Assembly: GCA_025464025.1 (NCBI GenBank)
Contig: JAODBP010000275.1
Location: 1 to 31,625, forward strand
DNA: 31,625 bases
Reading direction: 5' to 3'
DNA from: Actinomycetes bacterium
Lineage (GTDB): Bacteria > Actinomycetota > Acidimicrobiia > Acidimicrobiales > CADCSY01
Shown: one piece after another, positions 4,839-19,433 of the stretch
Position numbering within the stretch: position 1 is the stretch's first letter
Layout of the letters: each line of letters opens with the position of its first letter
Program-made: the position numbers and the translations under genes
Notes under the pieces: generated by a model
The model's input: only the letters and a program-made list of their open reading frames with translations
Told to the model about the DNA's origin: nothing
The model's database searches: none

Positions 4839-5663
4839 TCAGCCCAGGAGGTAGTGCACGCCGATGGCGCCGCTGAGGACGGCGCCGATGGCGGTGGTGG
4901 CCCGGAGCACCCCGGGGTGCCGGGCCGCCCCCGACCACCCGGCGGCCACGGCGAGGGCGAGCCCGCCCGTGGTGACCAGGATGCCGGCGACGAAGGCGGC
5001 GAGGATGGCGATCCCGGTCGTGGTCGACGTCACCTGGGCCGCGCTGACCAGCACCACGGCCTGGGTGCCCGTCTCGGCACCGACGCCGTGGAGCATGCCG
5101 ACGACGAGCGACCCGCCCCGGCCGTACCGGGTCTGGGTGACGGCGTGGACGTGACGGTGCCGGTGGCCGAGCAGGAGCCGGCGCTCCCGCGGGGGCGCGC
5201 TGACCGCCGGCGCGACCTCGACGTGGACGTGGTCGTGCCCGCCGCCACCATGGTCGTGGGGGTGCTCGTGCTCGACCGTGACCGTCCGCGTCCTCCGCAG
5301 CGCGGCCCGCACCCGTCCGAGCCCCTGCAGGAGGAGGATGCCGCGGCTGGTGGTGCGGCCGCGCCAGAGCGACCTGGCGAGCAGCAGGGCGAGGACCACG
5401 AGCGTGGCGCCGACCACCCGCTCCATGACCGGGTCGGTCCAGTCCGGCAGGCGATCACCGAGGGCGATGGCGATGGCGCCGAGCACGAAGACGGCGAGGC
5501 CGTGGCCCAGGGCGTAGAGCACGGCGAGCTGGGCCGACCGCCGCCGGTCGGGCTCGGCGCCGGTCAGGTCGGTGATGGCGGCGAGGTGGTCCCAGTCGAT
5601 GCCGTGGCGCAGGCCGAGACCGAACGTCGCCACGAGCAGCGCGACGTCGATGCCATGGCCCAC
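4839..5663 (-). CDS. NicO/NiCoT-like nickel or cobalt transporter
   Basis: 274 residues from GTG 5663. The first membrane segment carries LRHGIDWDHLAAI (residues 18-30), matching the nickel/cobalt permease signature HX4DH, with His20, Asp25 and His26 as expected metal ligands. A second motif-bearing segment (GMLHGVGAETGTQAVVL) fits the same family. About six hydrophobic segments are visible. The central loop is very rich in histidine (HEHPHDHGGGGHDHVHVEV and GHRHRHVHAV), suggesting cytoplasmic or surface metal buffering; such loops are common in the NicO/RcnA branch, so uptake and export cannot be told apart. It lies 76 bases after the ZIP-family gene in the same direction, which suggests a joint metal-homeostasis unit. 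Confidence 0.8.
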   Translation of the reverse strand: MGHGIDVALLVATFGLGLRHGIDWDHLAAITDLTGAEPDRRRSAQLAVLYALGHGLAVFVLGAIAIALGDRLPDWTDPVMERVVGATLVVLALLLARSLWRGRTTSRGILLLQGLGRVRAALRRTRTVTVEHEHPHDHGGGGHDHVHVEVAPAVSAPPRERRLLLGHRHRHVHAVTQTRYGRGGSLVVGMLHGVGAETGTQAVVLVSAAQVTSTTTGIAILAAFVAGILVTTGGLALAVAAGWSGAARHPGVLRATTAIGAVLSGAIGVHYLLG

Positions 5664-5739
5664 GTCGGCCAGTCTGACCGGTCCCGAAGACCGACGCGAA
5701 CGTGCGGCCCCAGCGAACGGGTTCCCGCGGGAGGGGTCG

Positions 5740-6582
5740 TCAGGCTCCCGCTGCGACGAGCACGTAGTCGGTGGCGAACCCGAGGACGAGTCCCAGGAAG
5801 ATGCCCCACATGACGATCTCGTCGAGACCGTGGCGGGCGGCCACCTTCGACAGCTGGAGCACCACGTACAGGATCGACCCCGCGGCCAACGCGAGGAAGC
5901 CCAGGAAGACCGTGTCGTTGACGAACGAGTGGCCGACGACGGTGCCGACGAAGGTGGGACCTCCTCCGATCAGGCCCATCGCCAGCAGGAAGCCCCACGA
6001 CGGGCGTTCGCCCTCCCCCGCCAGCGGGCCCACGATCCCGAAGCCCTCGGTCGCGTTGTGCAGGCCGAAGCCGATGACCAGCATGAGGGCCAGGGAGACC
6101 TCGCCGCTCGCCGCCGACTGCCCGATCGCCAGGCCTTCAGAGAAGTTGTGGAGCCCGATGCCGACAGCGATCAGCAACGCCAAGCGGTACGACGGCGCCC
6201 ACCCGCGGATCCCCTTGGACCCCTCACCGGAGCGCTGGGCGCTCATCCACCGGTCGTAGTAGACGAGCCCGACGAGGCCGAGCGCCACACCGAGGGCGAA
6301 CACCGACGCGAGCCCCGCGAAGCGCAACCAGGAGCCATGGCCGCCGGTCGCGGCCGTCAACGCCGACTCGACAGGCTCGTTGGCATGGGCCAACACGTCG
6401 AAGAGGAGGAACACGAGGATGCCGATGGCGACGGCGTTCAAGCCGGCCCGCAGCCGCGGCGCCGGGTTCCTCACCCTCCCGATCGGAAGACCGAGGAAGA
6501 TCGTGAGACCGGCGATCGCGGCGAGGAGGAACAGTCGTCCGGTCGAGATCTCCGTGGCGAGCACGGCGGCGAGGGTAGGCAT
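5740..6582 (-). CDS. ZIP-family metal transporter
   Basis: 280 residues with about eight membrane segments. The diagnostic metal motifs of ZIP carriers are present in two consecutive helices: HNFSEG at residues 145-150 and HNATEG at 175-180. The family moves zinc, iron or manganese across the cytoplasmic membrane; the long form with an extra N-terminal helix resembles the GufA/ZupT-like branch. A purine-rich AAGG stands a few bases before the ATG. It is followed by the NicO-like gene and preceded, after an 89-base gap, by the end of uppP, all in the same direction. No metal-responsive operator could be recognised in the upstream gap. Confidence 0.88.
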   Translation of the reverse strand: MPTLAAVLATEISTGRLFLLAAIAGLTIFLGLPIGRVRNPAPRLRAGLNAVAIGILVFLLFDVLAHANEPVESALTAATGGHGSWLRFAGLASVFALGVALGLVGLVYYDRWMSAQRSGEGSKGIRGWAPSYRLALLIAVGIGLHNFSEGLAIGQSAASGEVSLALMLVIGFGLHNATEGFGIVGPLAGEGERPSWGFLLAMGLIGGGPTFVGTVVGHSFVNDTVFLGFLALAAGSILYVVLQLSKVAARHGLDEIVMWGIFLGLVLGFATDYVLVAAGA

Positions 6583-6671
6583 GCCTTACGGTCTCGTCAA
6601 AGCGTTCCAACCGCGGGTCGGGACGGCGAACCCACTCGAGCGCCATGCCGGCGAAGGGTCCGTCGTGGTGC

Positions 6672-7511
6672 TCACAGGAAGCGGATGATGCTGATCCCGC
6701 CGGCCAGCAGGCAGTACACGGCGAACGGCACGAGCGTGTTGGTCTCGAAGAAGCGAACGAGGAACCGGACGGCCACGTAGGACGCCAGGCCGGCGAACAC
6801 CGCTCCGACCAGCGCCTGCATCCGGACGCCGTCGCCGAGCGGGCCGAGGAGGTCGGGCAGCTTGTAGACGCCGGCGGCGAAGATCACCGGTGTCGCCAGC
6901 AGGAACGAGAAGCGGGCTGCCTCCTCGTGGCTGAGCCCCCGGAGGAGGCCGGCGACCATGGTGATGCCCGAGCGGCTGATGCCCGGGAACAGGGCGGGGA
7001 TCTGCGCGGCGCCGATGAGCCCGCCCTCCTGCGGTTCGAGCGCCTCCAAGCGGCGACGTGCCTCCCGGCGGCGGAACCGCTCCCCGGCGAGGAGGATCAC
7101 GCCGTTGACCGTGAGGAAGACGGCGGCGGGCAGGGGCTTGGCGAAGCTGGTGCGCAGCGTGTGCTCGAGGACGAGGCCGGTGATCCCGACCGGGATGGTG
7201 CCGATCACCAGCAACCAGGCCATTCGCTCGTCGACGGTGTCGACCCGTCGGGTGCGGATCGTGCGGAAGAAGCCTCGGACGATGCGGACCCAGTCGGCGC
7301 GGAAGTAGACGAGAAGGGCGAGGGCCGTGGCGCAGTGCAGCGCCACCACGAAGGCCAGGTAGAAGGACTCGCCTGACGACTGCGACCGCACGATCTCATC
7401 CCAGCCCAACCAGGCCGGCACCAGCACGGAGTGCCCGAGGCTGGACACCGGGAAGAGCTCGGTGACCCCTTGGAGCAACCCGATCACGACGGCCTGGAAG
7501 TAGCTGAGCAC
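6672..7511 (-). CDS. uppP: Undecaprenyl-diphosphate phosphatase (BacA/UppP)
   Basis: 279 residues from GTG 7511, the usual length. Both family signatures are intact: GVTELFPVSSLGH (residues 15-27) and PGISRSG (176-182), holding the catalytic Glu, Ser, His and Arg. About eight membrane helices are visible. The enzyme removes one phosphate from undecaprenyl diphosphate on the outer membrane face, recycling the lipid carrier for peptidoglycan and other wall polymers; extra copies give bacitracin resistance. The promoter carries the CGCGAACCC box shared with the lipoprotein/ABC operon and a GT-C gene, implying control by the same regulator. Many actinobacteria have several copies, so this may be an inducible paralogue. 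Confidence 0.95.
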   Translation of the reverse strand: MLSYFQAVVIGLLQGVTELFPVSSLGHSVLVPAWLGWDEIVRSQSSGESFYLAFVVALHCATALALLVYFRADWVRIVRGFFRTIRTRRVDTVDERMAWLLVIGTIPVGITGLVLEHTLRTSFAKPLPAAVFLTVNGVILLAGERFRRREARRRLEALEPQEGGLIGAAQIPALFPGISRSGITMVAGLLRGLSHEEAARFSFLLATPVIFAAGVYKLPDLLGPLGDGVRMQALVGAVFAGLASYVAVRFLVRFFETNTLVPFAVYCLLAGGISIIRFL

Positions 7512-7519
7512 GGTTGGAG

Positions 7520-7555
7520 AAGCTACGGAGGCCTGGGTTCGCGCCAGGTTAGAGA
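7520..7555 (-). promoter_or_regulatory. uppP promoter with CGCGAACCC box
   Basis: Minus strand: GCGCGAACCC (7535-7544), then 9 bases, then the -10 hexamer TAGCTT (7520-7525), then 8 bases to GTG 7511. A degenerate second half, TCTCTAACCT (7546-7555), lies exactly 11 bases upstream. The same box with the same 9-base gap occurs at the promoters of the genes starting at 12240 (minus) and 17421 (plus). Confidence 0.5.
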
Positions 7556-7596
7556 CCCGGCGCTCCGGCCATCACGGCTGGCGGCGGGTGGTGGGC

Positions 7597-10245
7597 TCAG
7601 AGGTCACGGAGCGCCTGCGCTGACTGTCGGCCCGCGGTTCGAGCGGTCGTCGCTGCGACGCCGACGAGCGAGCCGAGGGCGAGGCCGAACACGGCGAGGA
7701 GGTAGAGCCAGGGCACGGCCAGGTGTTCGGGCGGCGGGTCGAACACGCCGGTGAGGACCTTGACGAGCAGCACGGCCGAGGTCCAACCGACCGCGGCGCC
7801 GAGCACCGCGCCGAGGACCCCGAGCACGACCGCTTCCGAGCGGACGAACGCGCCGAGCTGTCGGCGTCCGGCTCCGACGGCGCTGATGATGGCGAAGGCT
7901 CGCCGACGCTCGGCCAGGCCGAGGGCGAGCACCAGGCTGCACGACGCGACCGAGAGCACGAGCGCGTACCCGAGCTCCAGCCTGGTGAGGCCGGCCAGGT
8001 CGACCGCAGTCAGGCTCGAGCCGATGGCCATGTGGCTGCTGTCGATGTCGGTGACGGTGGCACCGGTGCCGACCGCGGCCCGGACCTGAGCGGCGACGGC
8101 ACGAGGGGAGCTTCCGTGGGTCTGGAGGAGCAGGACCGGGGCGATCGGGCCAGCCTGGCGGTCGAGGTAGGCGGCATTGGCGACGATGAAGCTGTCCTTC
8201 GGCGCGGTCGGGAACTCCTTGGCCACGCCGACGTAGCGGAACGCGACCTCGGTGAGCTGACCGGTGCTCCGGTCGCGGAGGCGGAGGTGGACGGCGTCGC
8301 CGAGGTGGAGCTGGAAGTCGAGGACGGTCTCGGCGCTGAACAGCGCAGCGTCGGGTCGACGGGCGAGGCGGCCGAGCAGTGCCTTCGCCGTGCCACCGGT
8401 GAAGTAGGCGTCTTGGAGCTTCCCTGCGCTGCGGATCGTGTCGGGCTGGACCCCGTAGAGGTCTTGGAGGTCGGCGCCGACGTAGGCGAAGCGGTGCTCG
8501 AGCGGCTCGACGTGGCGGACGCCGGCGATGCCGGCGACCTTTGGTTCGAGCGAGGTGGCCGCGTTGGTGGTGGGGGTGACGGTGACGTCGGCGCCGTTGG
8601 TGAGCACGGCGTCGACGCGGGCTTGCTGCCGGTAGGTCGCGTTGAACACCGCGGTGGAGATGGCGAACGTGAAGGTGAGCGCGAGGAGCGTCACCGCGGT
8701 CGCGAGGGTTCGGCGACGACGGGCGAGGCTCGACGCCGCGGGCCGGGCCAGGTTGCCGGTGACCGGACGGAGCACGGCGCGGACGACGCGCGAACCGCGA
8801 CCGAGCAGGAGGTCGGTGAGGCGCCAGACGGCCAAGCCGGCGCCGGTCCAGAGCAGGAGGGGGCCGGCGAGTGCCCAGTAGTTGACGGACACCGTGGGCA
8901 CGCCTTCCGGGGCGAGGACGAGCTGGTAGTGGTTGCGGCTCGAGGCCCAGAACACCACCGCGGCGCTGGCGAGCAGCAGGATGTCGGCGCCGTAGCGCAG
9001 CACGATCGGCGTCCGGGTCCGAGTGATCTCGCGTCGTGTGGCGGCGACGGTGGCCGCGGCATCGCGTCGGGCGGGCAGGGCGACGGATGCCACGGCCACG
9101 ACGACGCCGAACCCGGCTGCCGCCAGCGCCCACGTCAACGTCGCGCGCTGGGATGCGCCGAAGCTCGCGGTGCCGAACGCGACGCGGCCGGCGAGCGCGG
9201 CCAGCCCGAGACCGGCGACGCAACCGGCGGCGGCTACGAGCGCCGCTTCGGCGACGGCCAGGCGTTGCAGGACTGCCGTGGTCGCGCCGCGGGCGCGGAG
9301 GAGGGCGAGCTGGCGGCGCCGGCGGGTGCGGCCGGTGTCGGCGACCGTACGGGTGAGCAGACCGGCGAGCGCGGCACCCGGAAGGCCGAGCAGCACGAAG
9401 AGGATCTCGGCGTAGAGGGCGTCGGAGCGGGCGGCGTCGAGGGTGGCACCGAGGTTGTTGCCGACGAGGGCGGCCCCCGTGAGGTCGGCTTCGAGGCGGT
9501 TCGCCATCCGCGACGTGCGGGTGAAGGCGCCAGCGGGATCGTCCGGCAGCCGGTGGTCGAGTCGAGCGTGGACCTGGATGCGGACGAGGTCGGGCCTGGA
9601 CGCGGCGAGCGGGTCGAACAGCCGGTGCCACCGGTCGATGGGCACGAGCAGCACGTTGTCGGGCGGCGCCTGGGGCTGCGATCCGGGCGGTGCGCCCACC
9701 TTCTGGAAGAGGGAATCGGCTTGGGGCAGCTCGACGATGCCGTCGACGCGGAGACGGACCGGGGGCAGGCCCTCGCGGCCGACGATGACGACGTCGCCCG
9801 GACCGGCCCGCAGGTTGGCCGCGGTCTGCTGGGCCAGGAGGACACCGGACCCGGAGCCGACGAGGGTCCGGAGCCCGGCCGGAAACGTGGCCCGGTACCC
9901 CGGAGCGAGGCCGAGGACGATGCCCGGTCCGGTCGACTGCGTGGTGCCGCCGGTCGTGGCCTCCATGCCGGAGGTGGTGCCGAACCCGGTGAGGAGCGCG
10001 GCGACCGTCTCGGGTTGGCGGCGGATCCCCTGGAGCACGGTCGAGGGGTCACCGCCGGGCTGGACCTCGACCTGCCAGTCGACGGCCACCTGGGCGATGG
10101 CCCGATGGGTCATCTGCTTCTTCGCGGTCGCCACGAACACGCCGAGGGAGCCGACGAGGCCGACGGCGAGCGCGACGCCGGCCGCGGCGCCGAGGAGCCG
10201 GCCCGAGCGACGCCGGACCAGCCCGACCAGCCAGAGGCGGGTCAC
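7597..10245 (-). CDS. ABC transporter permease, two FtsX-type modules
   Basis: 882 residues from GTG 10245; this start overlaps the stop of the upstream ATPase by four bases (GTGA), and sequence further upstream in this frame is only the ATPase in another frame. One membrane helix near residues 17-38 precedes a large extracytoplasmic domain, then helices (around AEILFVLLGLPGAALAGLL, VAEAALVAAAGCVAGLG and LTWALAAAGFGVVVAVASV), a second extracytoplasmic domain, and a final FtsX helix set ending QALRDL. Two FtsX units in one chain match type VII (MacB-like) mechanotransmission permeases, which handle lipoproteins, peptides or antibiotics rather than classic solutes. Gene order and overlaps place it last in the lipoprotein/ATPase operon. 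Confidence 0.88.
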   Translation of the reverse strand: MTRLWLVGLVRRRSGRLLGAAAGVALAVGLVGSLGVFVATAKKQMTHRAIAQVAVDWQVEVQPGGDPSTVLQGIRRQPETVAALLTGFGTTSGMEATTGGTTQSTGPGIVLGLAPGYRATFPAGLRTLVGSGSGVLLAQQTAANLRAGPGDVVIVGREGLPPVRLRVDGIVELPQADSLFQKVGAPPGSQPQAPPDNVLLVPIDRWHRLFDPLAASRPDLVRIQVHARLDHRLPDDPAGAFTRTSRMANRLEADLTGAALVGNNLGATLDAARSDALYAEILFVLLGLPGAALAGLLTRTVADTGRTRRRRQLALLRARGATTAVLQRLAVAEAALVAAAGCVAGLGLAALAGRVAFGTASFGASQRATLTWALAAAGFGVVVAVASVALPARRDAAATVAATRREITRTRTPIVLRYGADILLLASAAVVFWASSRNHYQLVLAPEGVPTVSVNYWALAGPLLLWTGAGLAVWRLTDLLLGRGSRVVRAVLRPVTGNLARPAASSLARRRRTLATAVTLLALTFTFAISTAVFNATYRQQARVDAVLTNGADVTVTPTTNAATSLEPKVAGIAGVRHVEPLEHRFAYVGADLQDLYGVQPDTIRSAGKLQDAYFTGGTAKALLGRLARRPDAALFSAETVLDFQLHLGDAVHLRLRDRSTGQLTEVAFRYVGVAKEFPTAPKDSFIVANAAYLDRQAGPIAPVLLLQTHGSSPRAVAAQVRAAVGTGATVTDIDSSHMAIGSSLTAVDLAGLTRLELGYALVLSVASCSLVLALGLAERRRAFAIISAVGAGRRQLGAFVRSEAVVLGVLGAVLGAAVGWTSAVLLVKVLTGVFDPPPEHLAVPWLYLLAVFGLALGSLVGVAATTARTAGRQSAQALRDL

Positions 10246-10916
10246 GAGCGGCTCCGATCGACGATCGTGCCGTCGGCGATCGTCCACCGCTCGTCGAAGC
10301 GCTCCGCGACGAGGGGGTCGTGGGTCGAGACCAGGACCGCGGCGCCGGTCTCGGCCGCGGCATCGTCGAGCGCGTCCAACACCGCCGCCGCGGTCGCGTG
10401 GTCGAGCTGGCCGGTCGGTTCGTCGGCGACGACGAGGGAGGGACGCCCGGCGAGGGCGCGGGCGATGCCCACGCGTTGGGCCTGACCGCCGGACAGCTCC
10501 TCGGGCAGGAGGCGGGCGAGATCGGCGAGGCCGAGTCGTTCGAGGGCCGCCCATGCCGAGACGGTCGCCTCGGCATCGCCGATGCCGGCGAGCAGGAGGG
10601 GGAGCGCCACGTTCTCGGTGGCGTCGAGCTCGGGGAGGAGGCTGGGACGTTGGAAGACGACACCGACCGTCCCGGGCCGCAGCGTCCGGGGTGGTCCGCC
10701 GAGGCCGGGCCAGTGCAGGGACCCGACCGTGGGTTGGTCGAGACCCGCGAGCAGGAGCAGCAGGGTGCTCTTGCCCGATCCGGATGGGCCCATGACCGCG
10801 ATCCGGGCGCCCGCCTCGATCGAGCACGAGATCCCGTGGACAGCGACGACCGAGGTGGGGCCGTCTCCGTAGGTGCGTGCGACTCGTTCGGCGATGGCCA
10901 GCGGGGTCGTGGTCAC
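10242..10916 (-). CDS. ABC transporter ATPase (MacB/LolD-like), first of two
   Basis: 224 residues from GTG 10916, whose GTGA overlaps the stop of the preceding ATPase. All nucleotide-binding elements are present: Walker A GPSGSGKST, Q-loop VVFQRPSLLPELDATENVALPL, signature LSGGQAQRVGIARAL, Walker B LVVADEPTGQLD and the H-loop LVSTHD. The ENVALPLL run after the Q-loop and the signature variant are those of the LolD/MacB/FtsE class that pairs with FtsX-type permeases. It ends in a GTGA overlap with the permease, so the two are translationally coupled. Together with the second ATPase it probably forms a heterodimeric motor on the single large permease. Confidence 0.95.
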   Translation of the reverse strand: MTTTPLAIAERVARTYGDGPTSVVAVHGISCSIEAGARIAVMGPSGSGKSTLLLLLAGLDQPTVGSLHWPGLGGPPRTLRPGTVGVVFQRPSLLPELDATENVALPLLLAGIGDAEATVSAWAALERLGLADLARLLPEELSGGQAQRVGIARALAGRPSLVVADEPTGQLDHATAAAVLDALDDAAAETGAAVLVSTHDPLVAERFDERWTIADGTIVDRSRS

Positions 10917-11572
10917 GTCAGCTGCCCGTCGACGAGGACGACGACCCGGTCCGCTGCGCCGGCGACGGCCCGGCTGTGGGTGGCGAGCAGCACACCGCGG
11001 CCCGCCTCGGCTTCGGATCGCAGCAACGCGAGCACCTGACGTTCGGTGGTGGCATCGATCTCGCCGGTCGGCTCGTCCGCGATCAGCACGGCCGGGTCGT
11101 TCGCGAGCGCGACGGCCAGGCCGGCGCGCACGGCCTCCCCTCCCGAGAGCTGGTCGGGCCGGCCACCACGCCGGCCCAGGATGCCGAGGCGCTCGAGCAG
11201 GTGCTCACGGCGTTCGGGGTCGACGCCACCGCCGAGTCGCTGGGCGATGACGAGGTTGTCATCGACGCTCAGGTGTGACACGAGGTTGTCCTGCTGGAAC
11301 AGCAGCCCGATGGACCTCGACCGCAGGTCGGCCCGTTGCCGCTCGGTTCGCCGGGTCATGGTCTCGCCCGAGATGCGGACCGTGCCGCCGTCGGGTTCGT
11401 CGATGCCGGCCAGGCAGGCGAGGAGCGTCGACTTCCCCGACCCCGACGGACCCGTGACGGCGACGATCTCGCCGGGCACGACGTGGATCGACACGCCCCG
11501 CAGCGCGAGGACCTCGTCGTCGCCGGCATGGAAGAAGCGATAGAGGGACCTGGCCTCGAGGACCGGGGTCAC
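10913..11572 (-). CDS. ABC transporter ATPase (MacB/LolD-like), second of two
   Basis: 219 residues from GTG 11572, which overlaps the lipoprotein stop by GTGA; a GTG at 11578 is an alternative. Walker A GPSGSGKSTLLACLAG, Q-loop LLFQQDNLVSHLSVDDNL, Walker B VLIADEPTGEID and the H-loop ATHSRAV are present. The signature reads LSGGEAVRAGLAVAL, where Glu-Ala-Val replaces the usual Gln-Gln-Gln/Arg run, so the two ATPases are not equivalent and one composite site may be weaker. Two distinct ATPases feeding one FtsX-type permease and a lipoprotein is an arrangement seen in actinobacterial envelope exporters. The substrate is unknown; the shared promoter box with uppP favours an envelope-stress role. 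Confidence 0.93.
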   Translation of the reverse strand: MTPVLEARSLYRFFHAGDDEVLALRGVSIHVVPGEIVAVTGPSGSGKSTLLACLAGIDEPDGGTVRISGETMTRRTERQRADLRSRSIGLLFQQDNLVSHLSVDDNLVIAQRLGGGVDPERREHLLERLGILGRRGGRPDQLSGGEAVRAGLAVALANDPAVLIADEPTGEIDATTERQVLALLRSEAEAGRGVLLATHSRAVAGAADRVVVLVDGQLT

Positions 11573-12240
11573 CGCCACGTGAACGAGTCGCTGACGATCC
11601 GCCAGGGATCGACGTTGTCGGCCCCGACCGCCCCGGCGAGCGTGAGGACGGCTTCCTTGCCACCCTTGGCGAACTCGTAGCGCTCGACCGCCTCGCGGAC
11701 CACCTTGCCGGTCACCGGGTCGGGCAGACCGTCCATCCGATAGGTGATCAGGATGGCGGGACCGCTCGTGCGCTGGACCTGGGTGACCTTGCCGGCCTCG
11801 AAGCAGTTCGCCGACGCCTGGATCGCCGGGACCTCGGTGGAGGTGGCCGACGCCACGGTGGGTGCCGCCGCGTCGAGGACCTCGATGCGGATCGAGTTGA
11901 ACTTGTCGGTGAAGGTGACGACACCGCCCGCCACGGTGCGGGCCCAACCCTCGGGGACCTTGACCGTGACCCCGCCGGCGGGCGGCGTGTACGGGACGAA
12001 GGCCTGGTTGTCGGGGATGTCGCCGGGATCGTTGACCTCCTTCGCGCCATTGCCGCCGGCCGGCGCGGTGACCGGCGCGCAGGTGGCCGGCGCGGTCGTC
12101 GAGCTGGAAGCGGGCGCCGAAGTCGATGGTGGGAGCGCCGAGAAGGTGGTGCTTGCCGCTTCCTTCGTCCCACCGCCCGACGAGCAGGCGCTGAGCGCGA
12201 CCGCGAGGAAGAGGAGGGTTCCACCGAGACGTCCGACCAT
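11569..12240 (-). CDS. Lipoprotein heading the ABC operon
   Basis: 223 residues. The signal MVGRLGGTLLFLAVALSAC ends in an LSAC lipobox, predicting lipidation at Cys19; a Ser/Thr/Ala linker (about 21-55) leads to a globular domain. Visible stretches include VTVKVPEGWARTVAGGVVTFTD and ILITYRMDGLPDPVTGKVVRE, the look of a small PsbP/LpqN-like lipoprotein fold that binds lipids or shields a target. That fold call is tentative. It is the first gene of the operon and its stop overlaps the next GTG, so it is made with the transporter and could deliver substrate to, or sense it for, the extracytoplasmic domains of the permease. The leaderless promoter carries the shared CCGCGAACCC box. Confidence 0.8.
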   Translation of the reverse strand: MVGRLGGTLLFLAVALSACSSGGGTKEAASTTFSALPPSTSAPASSSTTAPATCAPVTAPAGGNGAKEVNDPGDIPDNQAFVPYTPPAGGVTVKVPEGWARTVAGGVVTFTDKFNSIRIEVLDAAAPTVASATSTEVPAIQASANCFEAGKVTQVQRTSGPAILITYRMDGLPDPVTGKVVREAVERYEFAKGGKEAVLTLAGAVGADNVDPWRIVSDSFTWR

Positions 12241-12247
12241 GGCACCG

Positions 12248-12294
12248 ATCTTGGCCCTGGACGGGTTCGCGGCCAGCCCGGTGCCGGTTCGCGG
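12248..12294 (-). promoter_or_regulatory. Lipoprotein/ABC operon promoter with two CCGCGAACC boxes
   Basis: Minus strand: CCGCGAACCG (12285-12294) and CCGCGAACCC (12263-12272) lie 22 bases apart, two 11-base steps. Then come 9 bases, the -10-like hexamer CAAGAT (12248-12253) and 7 bases to ATG 12240. Box, 9-base gap and near-leaderless start repeat the layout at uppP and at the gene starting at 17421. Confidence 0.5.
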
Positions 12295-12352
12295 AAGGTA
12301 AAAGGTCAGCGTCCGGCGTTGGAGGATTTACCCGGCGCATACCTTCCGCGAA
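12288..12352. repeat. 13-base inverted repeat in the divergent promoter region
   Basis: TTCGCGGAAGGTA (12288-12300) and its exact complement (12340-12352) are separated by 39 bases in the gap between the divergent ABC operon and DUF347 gene. The left arm overlaps the distal CCGCGAACC box. A partial third arm, TACCTTCGG, forms the -10 region of the DUF347 gene (12376-12384). This may be an operator serving both directions by looping. Confidence 0.5.
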
Positions 12353-12387
12353 GGGGGCGAAGTCCTGGTGCTTCGTACCTTCGGCCC

Positions 12388-13176
12388 ATGCCGACCGAAC
12401 CGCAACGCCGCACCAGTGGGCGCACCCTGCTGAGCAAGGTCCCCGAAGTCACGATCTTCTTCTGGATCATCAAGATCATGGCGACGACGGTCGGAGAGAC
12501 GGCCGCCGACTTCCTGAACGAGACCATGAAGCTCGGCCTGACGACGACCACCATCGTCATGACCGTCGCCTTGGTCGTCGTCTTGTACTTCCAGTTCCGA
12601 GCGCCTCGGTACGTGCCCGGCATCTACTGGCTGACCGTGGTGGCGATCAGCATCGTCGGCACCCTGGTCACGGACAACCTGACGGACCGGTTCGGCGTCA
12701 GCCTCAAGCTCACGACCACCGTGTTCGCGGTCGCCCTCATCATCACGTTCGCGGCGTGGCAGAAGATGGAGGGGACGCTGTCGATCCACAGCATCTTGAC
12801 GCCGAAGCGCGAAGCGCTCTACTGGCTGGCCATCCTCTTCACCTTTGCTCTCGGGACGGCCGCCGGCGACCTCATCGCCGAGACGTTCAACGTCGGCTAC
12901 TGGAAGTCGGGTCTGATCTTCGGCGCCTGCATCGGGCTCGTGGTGCTCGCCTGGCGCCTCGGCGCCAACCCCATCCTCACGTTCTGGGCCGCCTACATCC
13001 TCACCCGGCCGCTCGGCGCCTCGATCGGCGACTACCTCTCGCAGAAGCCGGCCGACGGCGGGCTCGGCCTGGGCACCGTCGGCACCAGCGCCCTCTTCCT
13101 CGGGACCATCCTCGCCGTCGTCGTCTACCTGACGAGGACGAAGCGAGACCAGGTCGCCCTCACCGTCCCGGCCTGA
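12388..13176 (+). CDS. DUF347 (COG4705) membrane protein
   Basis: 262 residues from ATG 12388. This start is chosen because TACCTT (12376-12381) stands 6 bases before it as a leaderless -10; the frame is open from 12319 but that part is promoter. The protein is built from repeated two-helix units with the DUF347 mark: TTVGETAADFL near residue 33, GTLVTDNLTDRFG, GTAAGDLIAETF and RPLGASIGDYLSQ. About eight membrane segments are visible. The acidic Gly-(Glu/Thr)-x-x-Gly/Ala-Asp motifs in each unit lie in helices and could bind ions. The molecular function of the family is not known to me. It is divergent from the lipoprotein/ABC operon and shares its 150-base control region. Confidence 0.88.
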   Translation: MPTEPQRRTSGRTLLSKVPEVTIFFWIIKIMATTVGETAADFLNETMKLGLTTTTIVMTVALVVVLYFQFRAPRYVPGIYWLTVVAISIVGTLVTDNLTDRFGVSLKLTTTVFAVALIITFAAWQKMEGTLSIHSILTPKREALYWLAILFTFALGTAAGDLIAETFNVGYWKSGLIFGACIGLVVLAWRLGANPILTFWAAYILTRPLGASIGDYLSQKPADGGLGLGTVGTSALFLGTILAVVVYLTRTKRDQVALTVPA

Positions 13177-13198
13177 ACGCCGGGCCCGGCAGACGACT

Positions 13199-14347
13199 GT
13201 GACCGACATGCTCATCGATCGGCGACCCCGAGAGATCCTCGCGGTCTGGACCGGCGCGGTCGCCGCGATCTGGATGCTGCGCCCGCCACCGAGCTCATGG
13301 CACTTCTTCCACGACGCCGCCGGGATGCTCGTCGGGGACGCCCCGGCGCTCCTCGGACACGGCGGGCTGCACCTCTGGCAGTCCCAACCCGACTTCCAGT
13401 TCGGACCCGTGACCGTGCTCTTCGCCCTGGTCCTCCGGGTGCTCGCCGGGTCCCATGACGCGTGGGCTGCCCGCCTCGTGATCGCTCCGCTCGCCCCGGT
13501 GCTGGTCTGGCTGGTGGAGGACGCGGCGACGCACGTCCGACTCGGGCCACCGGCGCGGACGACCCGCCGGATGGCGCTCGCCGCCGGGGTGGTCCTCGTC
13601 CCGATCTGGGACTACTTGGCCCTCGGGTCGCTCCACATCGACGATGCCATCGCCATGACCGCTGCGGTGCTCGCCGTCTGGGCGATCGCCCGGCGTCACC
13701 CCCTGGTGGTCGCCATCGCGCTCGGCGTCGCCGCCAACGCCAAGCCCTGGGCTGTGGTCTTCCTGCCCCTCGCCCTGGCGACCCCCGCCGAGGACCGTCG
13801 TCGGACCCTCGGGATCGCGGCAGCACTGGCGCTCCTTCCCTGGCTCCCGTTCCTGTTGGCGGCCCCCGGCACCATCCAGAGCCTCCGGGCGTTCCGCATC
13901 CACAACATGTCGACCTCCGCGCTACGGGCGCTGGGGATCCACACGGCGTCGACACCGTCGTGGGATCGGCCGGCCCAGCTCGGTCTCGGCCTCGTCGCAG
14001 GGCTCGTTGCCGTGCGACGGGGAAGGTGGCCGGGAGCGCTGCTCGTCGGCGTGGCGATCCGCCTGCTCCTCGACCCGGGCTCGCACCTCTACTACTCGGC
14101 AGGTCTCGTCGTCGCCGCGCTGGTGTGGGACCTCGTGGGCTCCCCCTGGACGATCCCGTGGGTCACCTTGGCGACCGCGGCCGCCCTGCAGGTTCCCCGC
14201 ATCATGCACGCCCCACCGTGGCTGAGCGGCTGGCTCCGCCTGCTGGTGACCGTCGGGGCGGTCGTGGCCGTGTTCGCCTGCCCCACCCGAGCGCTCGCCG
14301 GCTCGGCAGCGGACGACCGGCGGCCGGCCGTCGGAGCAGCGTCGTGA
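13199..14347 (+). CDS. Polytopic membrane protein, GT-C/GT87-like
   Basis: 382 residues from GTG 13199 (ATG 13208 is an alternative). Ten or so hydrophobic segments alternate with short loops. The first outer loop, after RPPPSSWHFFHDAAGMLVG, holds acidic and aromatic residues (HLWQSQPDFQFGPVTVLFALVLRVLAG) as in polyprenol-phosphate-sugar-dependent mannosyltransferases of the GT87/DUF2029 group, and ANAKPWAVVFLPLAL matches their conserved Lys-Pro region. Such enzymes add sugars to lipids or wall polymers on the outer face. Substrate unknown. The stop overlaps the next start by GTGA, so it is translated together with the DMT-type gene. Confidence 0.72.
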   Translation: MTDMLIDRRPREILAVWTGAVAAIWMLRPPPSSWHFFHDAAGMLVGDAPALLGHGGLHLWQSQPDFQFGPVTVLFALVLRVLAGSHDAWAARLVIAPLAPVLVWLVEDAATHVRLGPPARTTRRMALAAGVVLVPIWDYLALGSLHIDDAIAMTAAVLAVWAIARRHPLVVAIALGVAANAKPWAVVFLPLALATPAEDRRRTLGIAAALALLPWLPFLLAAPGTIQSLRAFRIHNMSTSALRALGIHTASTPSWDRPAQLGLGLVAGLVAVRRGRWPGALLVGVAIRLLLDPGSHLYYSAGLVVAALVWDLVGSPWTIPWVTLATAAALQVPRIMHAPPWLSGWLRLLVTVGAVVAVFACPTRALAGSAADDRRPAVGAAS

Positions 14348-15225
14348 GCATCGCACTCGCCCTCCTCTCCGCGCTGGCGTTCGGCGCTGGGATGACGCTC
14401 CAGCAGCGGGGAGCACGAACCATCCCCTTCGAGCACGCCCTGCGGGCCTCGATGCTGCGCCGTCTCCTGACCCGCAAGGTGTGGTTGGCCGGCATCGCGG
14501 TCAGTGGCGTCGGGTTCCTGGCCCAGCTCCTGGCGCTGCGGACCGGAGCGCTCGTCGTCGTGCAACCGATCGTCACGTCCGCGCTCGTGGTGTGCCTCGC
14601 CATCACCGCGTGGTACGACCGCGAGCCGTTGGGCGGACGGTCGTGGGGTGCGATCACGGCCGTCGTCGCCGGCGTCGCCGTGTTCCTCTTGGCCGGCACC
14701 GCGCACCAGGGGGCCACCGCGGCCCTGTCCACACCGGCGCTCGGCGCCGCGTCCCTGGCCTTCGCCGGACTGACGGCCATCTGCGCCCGGCACGCGCGGA
14801 CCGGGGCCGGTCTGGCGAGGGCGGTCGCTGTCGGTGCGGCCGCCGGGCTCGGGAACGCCTACGTCGCGGTCCTCGGCCGCGCCGCCGCCGACGCGCTCCA
14901 CCACGGCGTCGGTGCACTGCTGCGCTCGCCCTACCCGTACGCCCTCGGAGCAGCCGCCGTCATCACCGTGCTCCTCGTGCAGGCCATCTACCAGGCTGGG
15001 CGGCCGACGCTCTCCCTTCCGATCGCCACCATGACCGAGGCGGTCGGCAGCCTGGTCCTCGCCATCACCGTGCTCCACGAACGGCCCGTCCTCACCGGGC
15101 TTCGAGGCGGCATGGCGATCCTCGCCTTCGGCATCGCGCTGCTCGGGTTGGTCGACCTCAGCCGGGATGAAGGTCGAACGGCTGTCGAGGTCGACCAGGA
15201 CCTGACGGCGATGGGGTCGACGTGA
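14344..15225 (+). CDS. DMT/EamA-like integral membrane protein
   Basis: 293 residues from GTG 14344, coupled to the previous gene by GTGA. Nine to ten membrane segments are visible. The pattern LALLSALAFGAGMTLQQRGA at the start, GALVVVQPIVTSALVV in the fourth segment and PTLSLPIATMTEAVGSLVLAITVLHERP near the end matches the EamA/DMT-type proteins common in actinobacteria, where the last two repeats carry the Pro and Glu of the inverted 5+5 fold. It could export a small metabolite or move a lipid-linked intermediate for the neighbouring GT-C-like enzyme; the substrate is not evident. A strong hairpin follows 46 bases after the stop. Confidence 0.8.
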   Translation: MSIALALLSALAFGAGMTLQQRGARTIPFEHALRASMLRRLLTRKVWLAGIAVSGVGFLAQLLALRTGALVVVQPIVTSALVVCLAITAWYDREPLGGRSWGAITAVVAGVAVFLLAGTAHQGATAALSTPALGAASLAFAGLTAICARHARTGAGLARAVAVGAAAGLGNAYVAVLGRAAADALHHGVGALLRSPYPYALGAAAVITVLLVQAIYQAGRPTLSLPIATMTEAVGSLVLAITVLHERPVLTGLRGGMAILAFGIALLGLVDLSRDEGRTAVEVDQDLTAMGST

Positions 15226-15271
15226 TCGCAGGGAGGCCGCTTTGTGGGGGCGGCCCGCCCTGCCGGGGTGA

Positions 15272-15305
15272 CAGCGGGAGCCGGAGTTCGCACCGGCTCC
15301 CGCTG
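15272..15305 (+). terminator. Hairpin terminator after the DMT-type gene
   Basis: A perfect 13-base stem (15272-15284 with 15293-15305, arm CAGCGGGAGCCGG) has an 8-base loop and no T-run. It separates the GT/DMT pair from the two-component operon. Confidence 0.6.
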
Positions 15306-15408
15306 GCGCCACCCCTGCCTCCACGGCAGCCACCTGATGGCTGACCCGCCAGCGATCCCGGGCGCCGGCGGCGGCGACCCGCTCGCCTCGGTGCCTACGC
15401 TCGACCCC

Positions 15409-16086
15409 ATGGTCGGCGCCGTCGAGGTCGTCTTGGTCGAAGACGACGATGGGATCGGCAGCTCCCTCGTGCGGACCCTGGTCGGCCAGGGCTACCTCGT
15501 GACCTGGGCCCACACCGCGGAGGAAGCACTCGCCGCCGTGGAGACGAGCACGAGGCTCGTGATCCTCGACCTCGGCCTACCCGACCGGGACGGTCTCGAG
15601 GTCTGCCGTGAGCTCCGCGACCGAGCGCCCGCGCTCCAGATCCTGATCCTCACGGCTCGCAGCGGTGAGGGCGACGTCGTCCTCGGCCTGGACGCAGGAG
15701 CGGACGACTACCTCGCCAAGCCGTTCGGGCTGGCCGAGCTGCTCGCCCGCGTCCGTGCCTGCACCCGCCGCATCGACGACGACAGCGACCGTCTCACCCT
15801 CGGCGGGCTCACCATCGACGTCCTCGGGCGGACGGTCACCGTCGACGGCGTGGCGACCGACCTGCGCCCGAAGGAGTTCGACCTGCTCGTCGCGCTCGCC
15901 CGCAACGTCGGGCGGGTCGTGCGACGCGAGCAGCTGCTCGACGAGGTGTGGGACGAGCACTGGTTCGGGTCGACCAAGACCCTCGACATCCACATCTGGG
16001 CGTTGCGCCGCAAGCTCGACGCGCCCGAGTCGACGAGCCGCATCACGACGGTCCGCGGGGTCGGCTACCGGATCGACGCCCGGTGA
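15409..16086 (+). CDS. OmpR-family response regulator
   Basis: 225 residues from ATG 15409, chosen because TACGCT (15396-15401) lies 7 bases upstream as a leaderless -10 and the receiver fold starts at once. The receiver (residues 5-118) has the acidic pocket EDDD (11-14), phospho-acceptor Asp54 in VILDLGLPD, the switch Thr in LILTARS and Lys in DYLAKPFG. A winged-helix DNA-binding domain follows (about 127-225) with LRPKEFDLLVALARNVGRVV and the recognition helix region TKTLDIHIWALRRKL. Such proteins bind direct repeats at 11-base spacing; boxes of that kind stand before the gene at 17421 and elsewhere in this window. The stop overlaps the kinase start by GTGA. Confidence 0.95.
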   Translation: MVGAVEVVLVEDDDGIGSSLVRTLVGQGYLVTWAHTAEEALAAVETSTRLVILDLGLPDRDGLEVCRELRDRAPALQILILTARSGEGDVVLGLDAGADDYLAKPFGLAELLARVRACTRRIDDDSDRLTLGGLTIDVLGRTVTVDGVATDLRPKEFDLLVALARNVGRVVRREQLLDEVWDEHWFGSTKTLDIHIWALRRKLDAPESTSRITTVRGVGYRIDAR

Positions 16087-17369
16087 GGCGCCGGATCCTG
16101 CTCTCCATGGTCCTCGTGACGGCCGTCGCTGTCGCGCTGTTCGCCATCCCGCTCGGCGTGGCCGTCAACCGCTTGTACCGCGGGCGGGAGGTCAGCCGCC
16201 TCGACCAGGAAGCCACCCGTGCCGTGGGCTCGGTCCCGGCGACCGGCCTCGACGGCGCCGACGCCCTCCGCCTGCCCCAGGCGCCCGGCAGGGTGCGCAC
16301 CGCCATCTACGGGCCCGACGGCCAGCGCCTCGCCGGAGTCGGGCCGCGCACCGGTGGCAGCGTGGTCCGGGCCGCGCTCCGCGGCCAGGTCACCAACGAC
16401 CACGACGGCGCCTGGCTCGCCGTCGCCGTGCCCATCCACGACGAGGACCGGATCGTCGGCGCCGCCCGCGCTGCGCTGCCATGGGACGTCGTCACCGACG
16501 ACACGAACCGGGCCTGGCTCGCCATGACCGCGTTCGCGCTGGTCGTCGTGATGCTGTCCGGTGCGTTGGCCTGGTGGCTGAGCTCGATCCTGGCTCGCCC
16601 GATCGAGCACCTGACCGCCCTCGCCCTCCGCCTGGGGGACGGTGACTTCAGCGCCCGGGTCGAGCCGGCCGGCGTTCCTGAGGTCGACCGGGCCGGCACG
16701 GCGCTCAACCGCACGGCCGCCCGGCTCGGTGACCTGATGGCCCGCGAGCGGTCGTTCACCGCCGACGTCTCCCACCAGCTGCGAACGCCGCTCACCAGCC
16801 TTCGCCTCGCGCTCGAGAGCGCCCTCCTCACCCCCGGGGTCGACGAACGAGCCGCCATCGACGTTGCCCTCGGCGAGGTCGGCCGCCTCCAGACGACCGT
16901 GGCGACCTTGCTGCGCATGGCACGCGACGCGGACCCGCTCGGAGGCGTGCCGTGTGATCCGGCCAAGGTGAGCGTCGAGGTCGCCGAGCGGTACCGGGGG
17001 ACTCTCGCCTCCGCCGGCCGACCGCTCCACATCGACGTGCAGCCGGACCTGGGCCAAGCCCGCTGCTCCGCCGACGTCCTGCGCGAGATCCTCGTCGTGC
17101 TCCTCGACAACGCCGTCATCCACGGCGACGGCACGGTCCGCCTCACCGTGCGCCCGGCCGGCGCCGGGGTGATCGTCGAGGTCGGCGACGAGGGAGCCGG
17201 CATCCCGGACCCCGCCACCGTGTTCCGCCGCCGCGCCGGCGAGGCCACCGGGCACGGCATCGGACTGGCCCTGGCCCGCTCCCTCGCCGAGGCCCAGGGC
17301 GGTCGGCTCCTGCTCAGCCACGCCGCTCCGCACCCTCGCTTCACCGTCGCTCTCCTCGCCGCCACCTGA
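16083..17369 (+). CDS. Sensor histidine kinase
   Basis: 428 residues from GTG 16083, coupled to the response regulator by GTGA. TM1 is near residues 5-28, then an extracytoplasmic sensor of about 115 residues, TM2 near 145-170, a HAMP linker (about 170-222) and a HisKA domain with phospho-acceptor His231 in FTADVSHQLRTPLTSL. The ATPase domain has the N-box VVLLDNAVIHG, G1 DEGAGI and G2 GHGIGLALARSLAEAQGG. The N-box reads Asp-Asn-Ala-Val-Ile-His, close to canonical. The sensor loop has no recognised ligand fold. The genes around it make or transport envelope components, so it may sense wall damage or an antibiotic; this is inference. Confidence 0.94.
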   Translation: MRRRILLSMVLVTAVAVALFAIPLGVAVNRLYRGREVSRLDQEATRAVGSVPATGLDGADALRLPQAPGRVRTAIYGPDGQRLAGVGPRTGGSVVRAALRGQVTNDHDGAWLAVAVPIHDEDRIVGAARAALPWDVVTDDTNRAWLAMTAFALVVVMLSGALAWWLSSILARPIEHLTALALRLGDGDFSARVEPAGVPEVDRAGTALNRTAARLGDLMARERSFTADVSHQLRTPLTSLRLALESALLTPGVDERAAIDVALGEVGRLQTTVATLLRMARDADPLGGVPCDPAKVSVEVAERYRGTLASAGRPLHIDVQPDLGQARCSADVLREILVVLLDNAVIHGDGTVRLTVRPAGAGVIVEVGDEGAGIPDPATVFRRRAGEATGHGIGLALARSLAEAQGGRLLLSHAAPHPRFTVALLAAT

Positions 17370-17378
17370 CCGCGGCGT

Positions 17379-17414
17379 CCGCGAACCCGCCGCGAACCCA
17401 CCGTCTCGTACGGT
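17379..17414 (+). promoter_or_regulatory. Promoter with tandem CCGCGAACCC boxes
   Basis: CCGCGAACCC occurs twice, at 17379-17388 and 17390-17399, exactly 11 bases apart, as expected for an OmpR-type dimer. Nine bases later stands the -10 hexamer TACGGT (17409-17414), then 6 bases, then ATG 17421, so the transcript is probably leaderless. The boxes occupy the -35 region. Confidence 0.6.
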
Positions 17415-17420
17415 CGCCCG

Positions 17421-19433
17421 ATGTCGGCATTCGCCTACCTGCGTGGCGGTGGTGCCCTCGTGATCGCGGTCGCGAGCGTCACCTACGCGTGCCGGCACCT
17501 CCGCTCCCTCCTCACGCCCACCTGGCACGGGCCGTTGGCCCGGTTGGCCGAGATCGTCCTCGGTCTCAGCCTCGTCACGGTGCTCCTCGAGGTCCTGGGG
17601 ACCATCGGTCTGCTCCGCCCCACCATGGTCATGGTCGCCATCCCCCTGTGCGCCCTCGCCGCGGGCAGATGGGCAGCGGGGCGCAGCATGCCGAGCGACC
17701 AGCCGGCCCGCCCCCGGATCGTGGTCCGGTGGGACGTCCTGCTGTCGTTCGGGATCGTCGTCGTGGTCCTCGGCCAGTGGCTGGCCCACGCGAGCGTGAT
17801 CGTCGAAGGCGGCTTTCGGGACATGGACTCGCTCCGCTACCACGGCCCGTTCGTCGCCCGTTGGGTCCAGCAGCACAGCCTTGTCCACCTCGAGCACACC
17901 TCCAGCGAGGTGCAGGAGACGTTCTTCCCGGCGAACGCCGAGCTGCTCCACGCCTACGGCGTCCTGCTCTTCGGCCGCGACATCCTCACGCCCTTCCTCA
18001 ACCTCGCCTGGTACGGCCTCGGCGTGCTGGCCGCGTGGTGCGGCCCCGTCTCGGGGCGAGGACGTGCCGCAGCCGCAGCCGGGTTCGCGGCCGTCTGCTC
18101 GACGCCGCTGCTCTCCTCCATCGAACCCGGGTCGGCCAAGAACGACCTCGCCGCCGGCGTGCTCGTGCTGTGCCTGGCCGTCTTCCTCCTCCACCACGCC
18201 GAGGCGGGACGAGGCTCGATGGTGGTCGCCGGCCTGGCGGCTGGTCTCGCCGTGGGGACGAAGCTGACCGTGCTGGCGCCGTTGGCGGTGCTGGTGGTCG
18301 GGGTCGTGTGGCTCGCCCGCGGCCGGCGGCGCGCCGTCGTCGTCCCTCTGCTCGCCGGCACGGTCGTGACGGGCTCGTTCTGGTACCTGCGGAACCTGGT
18401 CCACACCGGCAACCCACTCCCCTGGCTCCGCCACCTCGGCCCCGTTCGACTGCCCGGCCCGGACATGCCGGGGGCGAAGGCGCACGGGTTCTCGGTCCTG
18501 CACTACGCCACCGACCACTCGTTCTGGACCCAGGTCGTTCCCACCGGTCTGGTGCACTCCTTCGGGCCGCTCTTCCCGCTCCTGTTGATCGGCGCCGTCG
18601 GGTTCAGCGTCCTCGCTCTCCTCGAGCGCGGCAGCGGGCCGCGGCTCGTCCCCCTCGCTGCGGTTGCCGGCATGACGGCCTACCTGGCGACGCCGTTCAG
18701 TGCCGGAGGTTCCGACGGCCATCCCACGCTCTTCGCCCTGGACCTCCGGTTCCTCGCCCCCAGCCTCCTTCTCGCCGTCGTCGTCGCCGCCCGTTCGGCG
18801 CGGGCCACCCTCCTCCTCGTCGCGTCGGCTTCGCTCGTCGCGGTGAACCAGTGGTCCGGGCTCGGTCGCTGGCCGAACAGCGACGGGGCGCTTCGGGGCC
18901 TGGCGCTCCTCGGCCTCGTCGGCGGACTGAGCGTGCTCGCGGTGCGGCACGTGCACGGTCATCAGCTCCTCGGCGTGGGCCTGGTGCTCGCTGTGGTCCT
19001 CGGAGCGGTCGGTTGGCCGGTGCAAGCGGATGAGGTGAGCGACCGCTACGCCGCGGTGGACTCGGGCCTGACCGCGGCGTTCGCGATGTTCCACGACACC
19101 CATGGGCTGCGCATCGCCGTCGGCGGCTTCGCCAACGACTACCCCCTGTACGGCGCCGGGCTCGACAACCGGGTGCAGTACATCGGCGTGCCGCTCGACC
19201 ACGGCGGGTTCCGGCCCGCGACGTCGTGTCGAGAGTGGCGCGGCGCGTTGGCGCGTGGTCGCTACGACGATGTCGTGCTCAGCCGGTCCCCGCTCGCCCG
19301 CCAGCGACTCCCACGCGAGGCCGCCTGGACGGCGACCGACCCCGCCGCCCACCTCGTGCTCAGCCGCGGCGTCACCCGCGTCTACCGGCTCCGCGGGTCG
19401 ATGGACCCGCGCCTCTGCCCGGAGGGCGCGTAA
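17421..19433 (+). CDS. Polytopic GT-C-like membrane glycosyltransferase
   Basis: 670 residues from ATG 17421. About twelve membrane segments precede a soluble C-terminal part (about 535-670). The first large outer loop carries FRDMDSLRYHGPFVARWVQ, an acidic Asp-x-Asp-like site typical of the PMT/GT-C superfamily that uses polyprenyl-phosphate sugars, followed by ETFFPANAELLHAYGVLLFG. KNDLAAGVLVLCLAVF and GTKLTVLAPLAVLVVG are further family-like stretches. It probably transfers a sugar to a wall polymer, lipid or protein at the outer face; donor and acceptor are unknown. It follows the kinase gene by 51 bases but has its own strong, boxed promoter, so it is a likely direct target of the two-component system. 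Confidence 0.82.
   Translation: MSAFAYLRGGGALVIAVASVTYACRHLRSLLTPTWHGPLARLAEIVLGLSLVTVLLEVLGTIGLLRPTMVMVAIPLCALAAGRWAAGRSMPSDQPARPRIVVRWDVLLSFGIVVVVLGQWLAHASVIVEGGFRDMDSLRYHGPFVARWVQQHSLVHLEHTSSEVQETFFPANAELLHAYGVLLFGRDILTPFLNLAWYGLGVLAAWCGPVSGRGRAAAAAGFAAVCSTPLLSSIEPGSAKNDLAAGVLVLCLAVFLLHHAEAGRGSMVVAGLAAGLAVGTKLTVLAPLAVLVVGVVWLARGRRRAVVVPLLAGTVVTGSFWYLRNLVHTGNPLPWLRHLGPVRLPGPDMPGAKAHGFSVLHYATDHSFWTQVVPTGLVHSFGPLFPLLLIGAVGFSVLALLERGSGPRLVPLAAVAGMTAYLATPFSAGGSDGHPTLFALDLRFLAPSLLLAVVVAARSARATLLLVASASLVAVNQWSGLGRWPNSDGALRGLALLGLVGGLSVLAVRHVHGHQLLGVGLVLAVVLGAVGWPVQADEVSDRYAAVDSGLTAAFAMFHDTHGLRIAVGGFANDYPLYGAGLDNRVQYIGVPLDHGGFRPATSCREWRGALARGRYDDVVLSRSPLARQRLPREAAWTATDPAAHLVLSRGVTRVYRLRGSMDPRLCPEGA

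Follow-up and report, generated by a model that had tools for sequence, protein, structure and literature searches.

In the PmrAB-arn system, an OmpR-type regulator pair controls lipid-carrier glycosyltransferases together with a flippase, and Bce-type modules combine one ATPase and one FtsX permease with a kinase that has a very short extracytoplasmic loop. SARP-type promoters, such as that of afsS, carry repeats 11 or 22 bp apart with 8 bp to the -10 hexamer (PMC10936776). Here we describe an operator of 11-bp periodicity, and the genes that follow it, in 31,625 nucleotides of DNA from a bacterium of the Acidimicrobiales (assembly GCA_025464025.1, contig JAODBP010000275.1; the window, meaning the whole stretch analysed). 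We give a probability of about 0.72 to the reading that this is the operator of the OmpR/PhoB-type regulator family represented at 15409-16086, or of a close paralogue, and that it governs an envelope and lipid-carrier regulon.

The locus shares features with each of several described systems. As in SARP promoters, the repeat units are spaced by 11 or 22 bp and stand at a fixed short distance from the -10 (PMC10936776), but this distance is 10 bp here instead of 8, and the window protein is a response regulator with a receiver domain. A SARP regulator (OmpR-type domain plus BTA domain) was considered and rejected, only Response_reg and Trans_reg_C having been found. The PHO boxes of Streptomyces PhoP also come close, with an OmpR-type regulator, 11-nt direct repeats, a core ending in ACC and a leaderless target, phoR (PMC6283541). 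Their unit, however, is GTTCACC, which PstS-like genes of the same genomes carry, and the unit of our module is different. The likeness to PmrAB-arn would lie in an OmpR-type pair over lipid-carrier glycosyltransferases and a flippase, with BasR among the nearest solved chains to the response regulator, whereas the GT2 proteins of the relatives match ArnC, the sole Arn protein searched, with only 37 and 44.6 bits (cut-off 529). Firmicute Bce modules likewise join an FtsX permease to a regulator pair and genes related to undecaprenyl diphosphate. The analogy with Firmicute bacitracin modules drawn in a preliminary description of this DNA nevertheless fails on gene content, and a Bce-type module was rejected, since the exporter has two distinct ATPases and a lipoprotein, and the two membrane helices of the kinase are set apart by a large region (about 110 residues, judged by eye). 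Finally, Frankia operons combine DUF347 and uppP, as does the closest relative of the window, but no operator or regulator is mentioned in the available part of that report (PMC4531530).

A periodic operator at lipoprotein promoters

Genomes of relatives were used for the tests, the closest being the metagenome-assembled genome Acidimicrobiales isolate RYN_34 (G001, locus L001). With part of the candidates scored in each genome, relatives of the window's lipoprotein were found in at least 29 of 395 Acidimicrobiia genomes and at least 20 of 296 genomes of the class of Terrabacter (Actinomycetes), and the matches were strong (E ≤ 1e-30) in at least 15 of the former and at least 18 of the latter. 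A motif of 56 columns was derived de novo from 29 lipoprotein upstream regions (17 Acidimicrobiia, 12 Actinomycetes), the window being excluded. Six further loci, which we call group B (L128, L129, L130, L132, L133 and L134), had been set aside before training, after repeats of the TCTCAT type were noticed by eye in five of them; the upstream region of L133 is too short to judge. The motif reads, unit by unit, TTTGCCG.gCG / CTtACC..ccG / Cg.aCCgGGCG / CTgaCC, then 10 bp and TACCGT, i.e. six-base half-sites at an 11-bp period, a 10-bp spacer and a -10 of the form TAnnnT. All but two of the training regions (27 of 29) score above 19 bits, the exceptions being L063, where the region was misplaced, and L123.

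RCC trimers show peaks at lags of 11 (z 12.3) and 22 (z 10.6) in the 27 motif-aligned regions, though alignment by the motif partly conditions this result. The module's operators thus carry 11-bp direct repeats next to the -10, the layout of PhoB-like tandem operators, in agreement with the earlier suggestion that an OmpR-type regulator would fit repeats spaced by 11 or 22 bp. Models trained on a single class recover the sites of the other class in register, with p ≤ 0.01 for 10 of 12 promoters in one direction and for 13 of 17 in the other, and they give the window's lipoprotein site p values of 0.004 and 0.006. A second profile (R1), also made without the window, rests on 22 sites: 20 lipoprotein, one GT2 and one DUF347. 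Excluded from it by hand were L052 (a near-duplicate), L127 (shifted by one unit by MAFFT), L062, L064, L066, L121, L123, L126 and the lipoprotein site of L057; among these, L062, L066 and L121 score well and L123 has no operator.

Operators and genes of the window

In a motif scan of 63,140 window positions, the promoter of the DUF347 gene ranks first (34.8 bits), that of the large GT-C-like gene second (10.6), that of the lipoprotein operon third (10.3) and that of uppP 16th (0.3). The strongest copy, before DUF347, had been overlooked in the preliminary description. Among 200 models with permuted columns, 0, 3 and 1 reach the first, second and third window scores, rank for rank. Profile R1 finds the DUF347 site at E=1.2e-8, the GT-C site (17376-17415) at 2.5e-4 and the lipoprotein site (12260-12302, without the -10) at 1.9e-4. 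The operators and genes concerned are the following.

12327..12382, plus: DUF347 operator and -10; distal half-site pair TTTACC 12327-12332 and CATACC 12338-12343, weak half-sites at 12349 and 12360, 10-bp spacer, -10 TACCTT 12376-12381, ATG 12388
12247..12302, minus: operator and -10 of the lipoprotein-ABC-ABC-FtsX operon; TTTACC 12302-12297, CGAACC 12291-12286, weak half-site at 12280, CGAACC 12269-12264, 10-bp spacer, -10 CAAGAT 12253-12248, ATG 12240
17360..17415, plus: GT-C operator and -10; CGAACC 17382-17387 and 17393-17398, 10-bp spacer, TACGGT 17409-17414, ATG 17421
7519..7574, minus: weak uppP operator and -10; CTAACC 7552-7547, CGAACC 7541-7536, 10-bp spacer, TAGCTT 7525-7520, GTG 7511
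15409..16086, plus: OmpR/PhoB-type response regulator, presumed binder (Response_reg, Trans_reg_C)
16083..17369, plus: sensor histidine kinase (HAMP, HisKA, HATPase_c)
11569..12240, minus: lipoprotein, no Pfam or NCBIfam match at 0.001, a plasmid relative annotated as PsbP-related
10913..11572, minus: ABC ATPase 1 (ABC_tran)
10242..10916, minus: ABC ATPase 2 (ABC_tran)
7597..10245, minus: FtsX-type permease with two FtsX stretches (PF02687)
12388..13176, plus: DUF347 membrane protein with four repeats (PF03988, 205 bits)
13199..14347, plus: GTx, membrane protein behind DUF347, GT-C-like by eye, no Pfam match
14344..15225, plus: DMT family transporter (NF038012, 92.9 bits, cut-off 50)
17421..19433, plus: large GT-C-like membrane protein (the GT-C gene), no Pfam match, weak NCBIfam match only
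6672..7511, minus: uppP, undecaprenyl-diphosphate phosphatase (NF001395, 424.5 bits, cut-off 394)

The preliminary description had started from a box at the uppP, lipoprotein and GT-C promoters, and its positions, its repeats at 22 and 11 bp, its spacing to the -10 and the distance to the start codon are all correct. Copies of CGCGAACC lie at 7536-7543(-), 12264-12271(-), 12286-12293(-), 17380-17387(+) and 17391-17398(+); 9 bases separate the 10-base box from TAGCTT, CAAGAT or TACGGT (10 when measured from the 8-base core), and 8, 7 and 6 bases separate the -10 from the start codon of uppP, the lipoprotein operon and GT-C. With the half-sites numbered from the -10 outwards, these copies correspond to numbers 1 and 3 in the lipoprotein array, 1 and 2 in that of GT-C and 1 in that of uppP, and CGCGAACC is the window's spelling of the longer 11-bp-periodic operator.

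As a word, the 8-mer is only mildly enriched in the window (8 copies where 3.69 +/- 1.94 are expected; a count of 8 is reached in 5 of 100 shuffles), three of its eight copies fall in coding sequence (8789+, 18082-, 20020-), and CCGCGAACC with one mismatch allowed shows no enrichment there (28 against 27.2 expected). It is found, however, within 60 bp upstream of 3 of the 16 listed genes where 0.107 would be expected (Poisson P 1.9e-4), so that position is what matters. In the genome-wide search suggested in the preliminary description, run on G001 (about 4 Mb) with the spacing left free from 6 to 14, both of the two matches had exactly 10; a reversed control also gave two, so their number is not enriched. 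One of them precedes the lipoprotein operon and the other a GT87-type gene, 30 bases ahead of its most probable start; this start is uncertain, the frame being open further upstream.

Some other features of these regions deserve mention. A perfect 13-nt inverted repeat, TTCGCGGAAGGTA / TACCTTCCGCGAA (12288-12300 and 12340-12352, 39 nt apart), extends across both divergent operators, either as a consequence of their half-sites and flanks or as a separate site. A strong hairpin (15267-15310), with 18-nt arms, 89% complementary, 8 nt apart, lies between the DMT and response-regulator genes. At 4839-7511, uppP, a ZIP transporter gene and a NicO-like gene share a strand, separated by about 90 and 77 bp, and may form one operon.

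Putative targets in related genomes

The lipoprotein promoter of G001 repeats the layout of the window, with two copies of CGCGAACC 22 bp apart, 10 bp, TACGTT, 6 nt and ATG. The lipoprotein-ABC-ABC-FtsX operon has a divergent response regulator gene in 15 of 17 Acidimicrobiia loci (2.6 kb off in one of these), and in the Actinomycetes loci a regulator or kinase gene is mostly nearby. G001 also has DUF347, uppP, response regulator and kinase genes in a row, with 84, 78, 69 and 60% identity to those of the window.

Profile R1 was searched in 20 genomes (at most 150 candidates scored in each, flanks fetched for 16 regions) and gave at least 9 sites at E ≤ 0.01 besides the training sites and one near-duplicate. 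One of them (E=9.6e-6) stands before the GTx-DMT pair of G001, orthologous to the window genes at 13199 and 14344 (64 and 76%), a pair that in the window lies behind DUF347. Sites in G119 precede two short frames that look GT2-like by eye (L170, L171) and resemble truncated GT2 genes, perhaps decaying duplicates with the promoter kept. Sites adjoining regulator pairs were found at a GT-C-like gene in G072, a gene for 144 aa in G135 and a ferric-reductase-like gene in G150, while the remaining ones are at a contig end of G001, in G502 (apparently intragenic) and in G497 (unclear). Weaker sites of G001 stand before a GT2 gene with ZIP behind it (81% to that of the window; E 0.053) and before a DedA gene (E 0.136). 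At the six strongest sites of G001, which include two training sites, the start codon comes 6-7 nt after the -10, a feature outside the model. Other fetched loci with sites are a GT2 gene beside a regulator-kinase pair in G119 (28.4 bits, later included in R1) and an ABC gene beside such a pair at L002 (19.1 bits).

The gene uppP has its own weak operator in the window, follows DUF347 in G001 and closely follows FtsX in G072; in G457 it has a strong operator (25.0 bits) between kinase and regulator genes. Genes stay under the operator while operons reshuffle between the window and G001.

The putative regulator

An OmpR-type regulator and its kinase had been described as encoded between the targets, and the domain matches at 15409-16086 and 16083-17369 bear this out. 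With 83.8 bits for Response_reg (cut-off 30.2) and 94 bits for Trans_reg_C (cut-off 26.2), the regulator belongs to the OmpR/PhoB family. Its nearest solved chain is RegX3 (157 bits), with which it has TKTLD-H in common in the recognition helix. Where the operator is of the ACC type, the regulators read have recognition helices of the TKTLD type; four regulators from group-B loci have helices of the SNVVD type, with 11-bp repeats of the TCTCAT type at the promoter in three of these loci. This covariation of helix and operator type is, we suggest, the best evidence from sequence for a match of regulator and operator, and the operator is probably bound by a regulator pair like the adjacent one. 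By eye, TCTCAT-type 11-bp repeats replace those of the ACC type at the lipoprotein operons of L128, L129, L130, L132 and L134. At L123, which has no operator, the regulator is only distant.

Weighing of the regulon and of its alternatives

Several observations weigh against the regulon as proposed. That TCTCAT repeats go with another type of regulator was noticed by eye and post hoc, and G001 carries two regulator-kinase pairs of this family (L137, L168), both near operator-bearing genes, so that a paralogue may be what binds. The promoter of the response regulator itself has no operator (rank 1682 of the 63,140 positions). The best scores of the permuted models (mean 8.2, maximum 18.8) include the range of GT-C (10.6) and lipoprotein (10.3), and these two sites are thus not decisive alone. 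The uppP site was not found by R1 in the window at E ≤ 5; box and spacing are present at this gene, but as the weakest of the window sites its membership, as claimed before, is weakly supported at best. That orthologous promoters share the operator holds for the lipoprotein-ABC operon, across two classes, and mostly not for the others. Of 28 uppP upstream regions from other genomes, the 27 besides that of G457 reach at most 2.4 bits, GT-C relatives lack the operator (at most 2.4 bits) in all four genomes having one, and 26 of 27 DUF347 loci have no strong operator, only that of G001 exceeding 14 bits. We conclude that the lipoprotein operon is the conserved core target and the rest are lineage-variable.

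If the box were merely a GC-rich 8-mer that recurs by chance close to leaderless promoters of a general kind, this would account for the mild enrichment of the 8-mer, for its absence with one mismatch and for leaderless-type -10 hexamers without a box, such as that of the response regulator. The independently derived motif, its transfer between classes, its periodicity, the same layout in G001 and the few permuted models that match the top three window scores make chance very improbable overall and hardly tenable for DUF347, lipoprotein and GT-C; for uppP it is less improbable. The repeats could also be degenerate PHO boxes for the PhoP/RegX3 of this lineage. RegX3 is the closest solved relative, with a similar recognition helix, PHO boxes are likewise 11-nt repeats of GTTCACC (PMC6283541), and leaderless-type promoters near PstS-like genes of G200 and G215 (L251, L253) reach 9.5 and 6.9 bits with the new motif, possibly by overlap of two repeat codes. 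Yet pairs of GTTCACC (at most one mismatch) occur upstream of a PstS-like gene in five of the same genomes (G001, G502, G100, G004, G469) and nearby in three more (G115, G088, G174), and the pair of G001 has only 5.7 bits with the new motif. GTTCACC-type units are thus found at PstS-like loci (a loose label, one of 16 genomes passing the family cut-off) and the other type at the operators of the module, and we consider a Pho regulon improbable.

The strong alternative keeps the operator and the regulator and changes the signal to a toxic metal (lead or similar), the module serving metal resistance. Operons of UppP and DUF347 are among the lead-induced genes in a Frankia paper, in the available part of which the organism measured is not fully clear and DUF347 is proposed as a metal transporter (PMC4531530). 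Genes for ZIP and NicO-like proteins follow uppP in the window, ZIP recurs near the module, and plasmid relatives lie near metal and iron genes. Glycosyltransferases, DMT and DedA are, on the other hand, unfit for pure metal export, and no conserved set of Cys/His is seen by eye in the sensor region of the kinase. We regard a metal signal as a real possibility, and rank the envelope response first.

Proposed mechanism and function

The operator consists of up to four six-bp half-sites (approximately YTNRCC; CGAACC, TTTACC, CATACC and CTAACC in the window) at an 11-bp period, the last one 10 bp upstream of the -10 hexamer, so that the array overlies the usual -35 region. Dimers of the phosphorylated regulator may bind proximally at uppP and GT-C, distally by two helical turns at DUF347, and at both proximal and distal sites at the lipoprotein operon, and would recruit RNA polymerase and activate transcription. 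Leaderless transcripts are probable in both the window and its nearest relative.

The targets (UndPP phosphatase, DUF347, glycosyltransferases, a flippase-like DMT transporter and the lipoprotein-ABC-FtsX exporter) suggest an envelope and lipid-carrier response. The GT2 proteins are nearest to polyprenyl-phosphate sugar synthases, below cut-offs, and the DedA protein has 182.7 bits (cut-off 236); together UppP, GT2, GT87, DedA and the DMT transporter point to the lipid-carrier cycle and envelope glycosylation. The cell-envelope regulon proposed earlier gains several further targets that are envelope or lipid-carrier genes, although outside G001 the relatives of DUF347, uppP and GT-C are mostly without the operator.

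Relatives of the module's parts are grouped on plasmids from Actinomycetota, Pseudomonadota and Deinococcota, and from Bacillota without the exporter in the stretch seen. In plasmids from Cryobacterium, Streptomyces, Azospirillum and Priestia, DUF347 relatives are accompanied by PAP2 or UppP, DedA and a regulator pair, and by the same genes plus the lipoprotein-ABC operon on those of Deinococcus and Rhizobium. An Enterobacter plasmid (L228) has a DUF347 gene behind mcr-10.1, which codes for a phosphoethanolamine-lipid A transferase and is likewise an envelope-modification gene. DUF347 might be an unrecognised part of the polyprenyl-phosphate carrier cycle, or couple the movement of metal to it, and the operator might mark a widespread, rearranging module (DUF347, UppP or PAP2, DedA, glycosyltransferases, DMT transporter, lipoprotein-ABC-ABC-FtsX and an OmpR-type pair) for remodelling the actinobacterial envelope, comparable to PmrAB-arn in enterobacteria, an extension that we find rather unlikely.

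The literature searched contained no description of this regulon; the class of mechanism is already known, and the target set and the link with DUF347 are apparently new, at least to us. They define a testable regulon for a class known largely from metagenomes, and the motif, which works across two classes, can point to targets in many genomes. The link of DUF347 and of an unknown lipoprotein-ABC exporter with lipid-carrier and glycosylation genes hints at what to assay, and two related 11-bp repeat codes, that of Pho and that of this operator, coexist in one genome.

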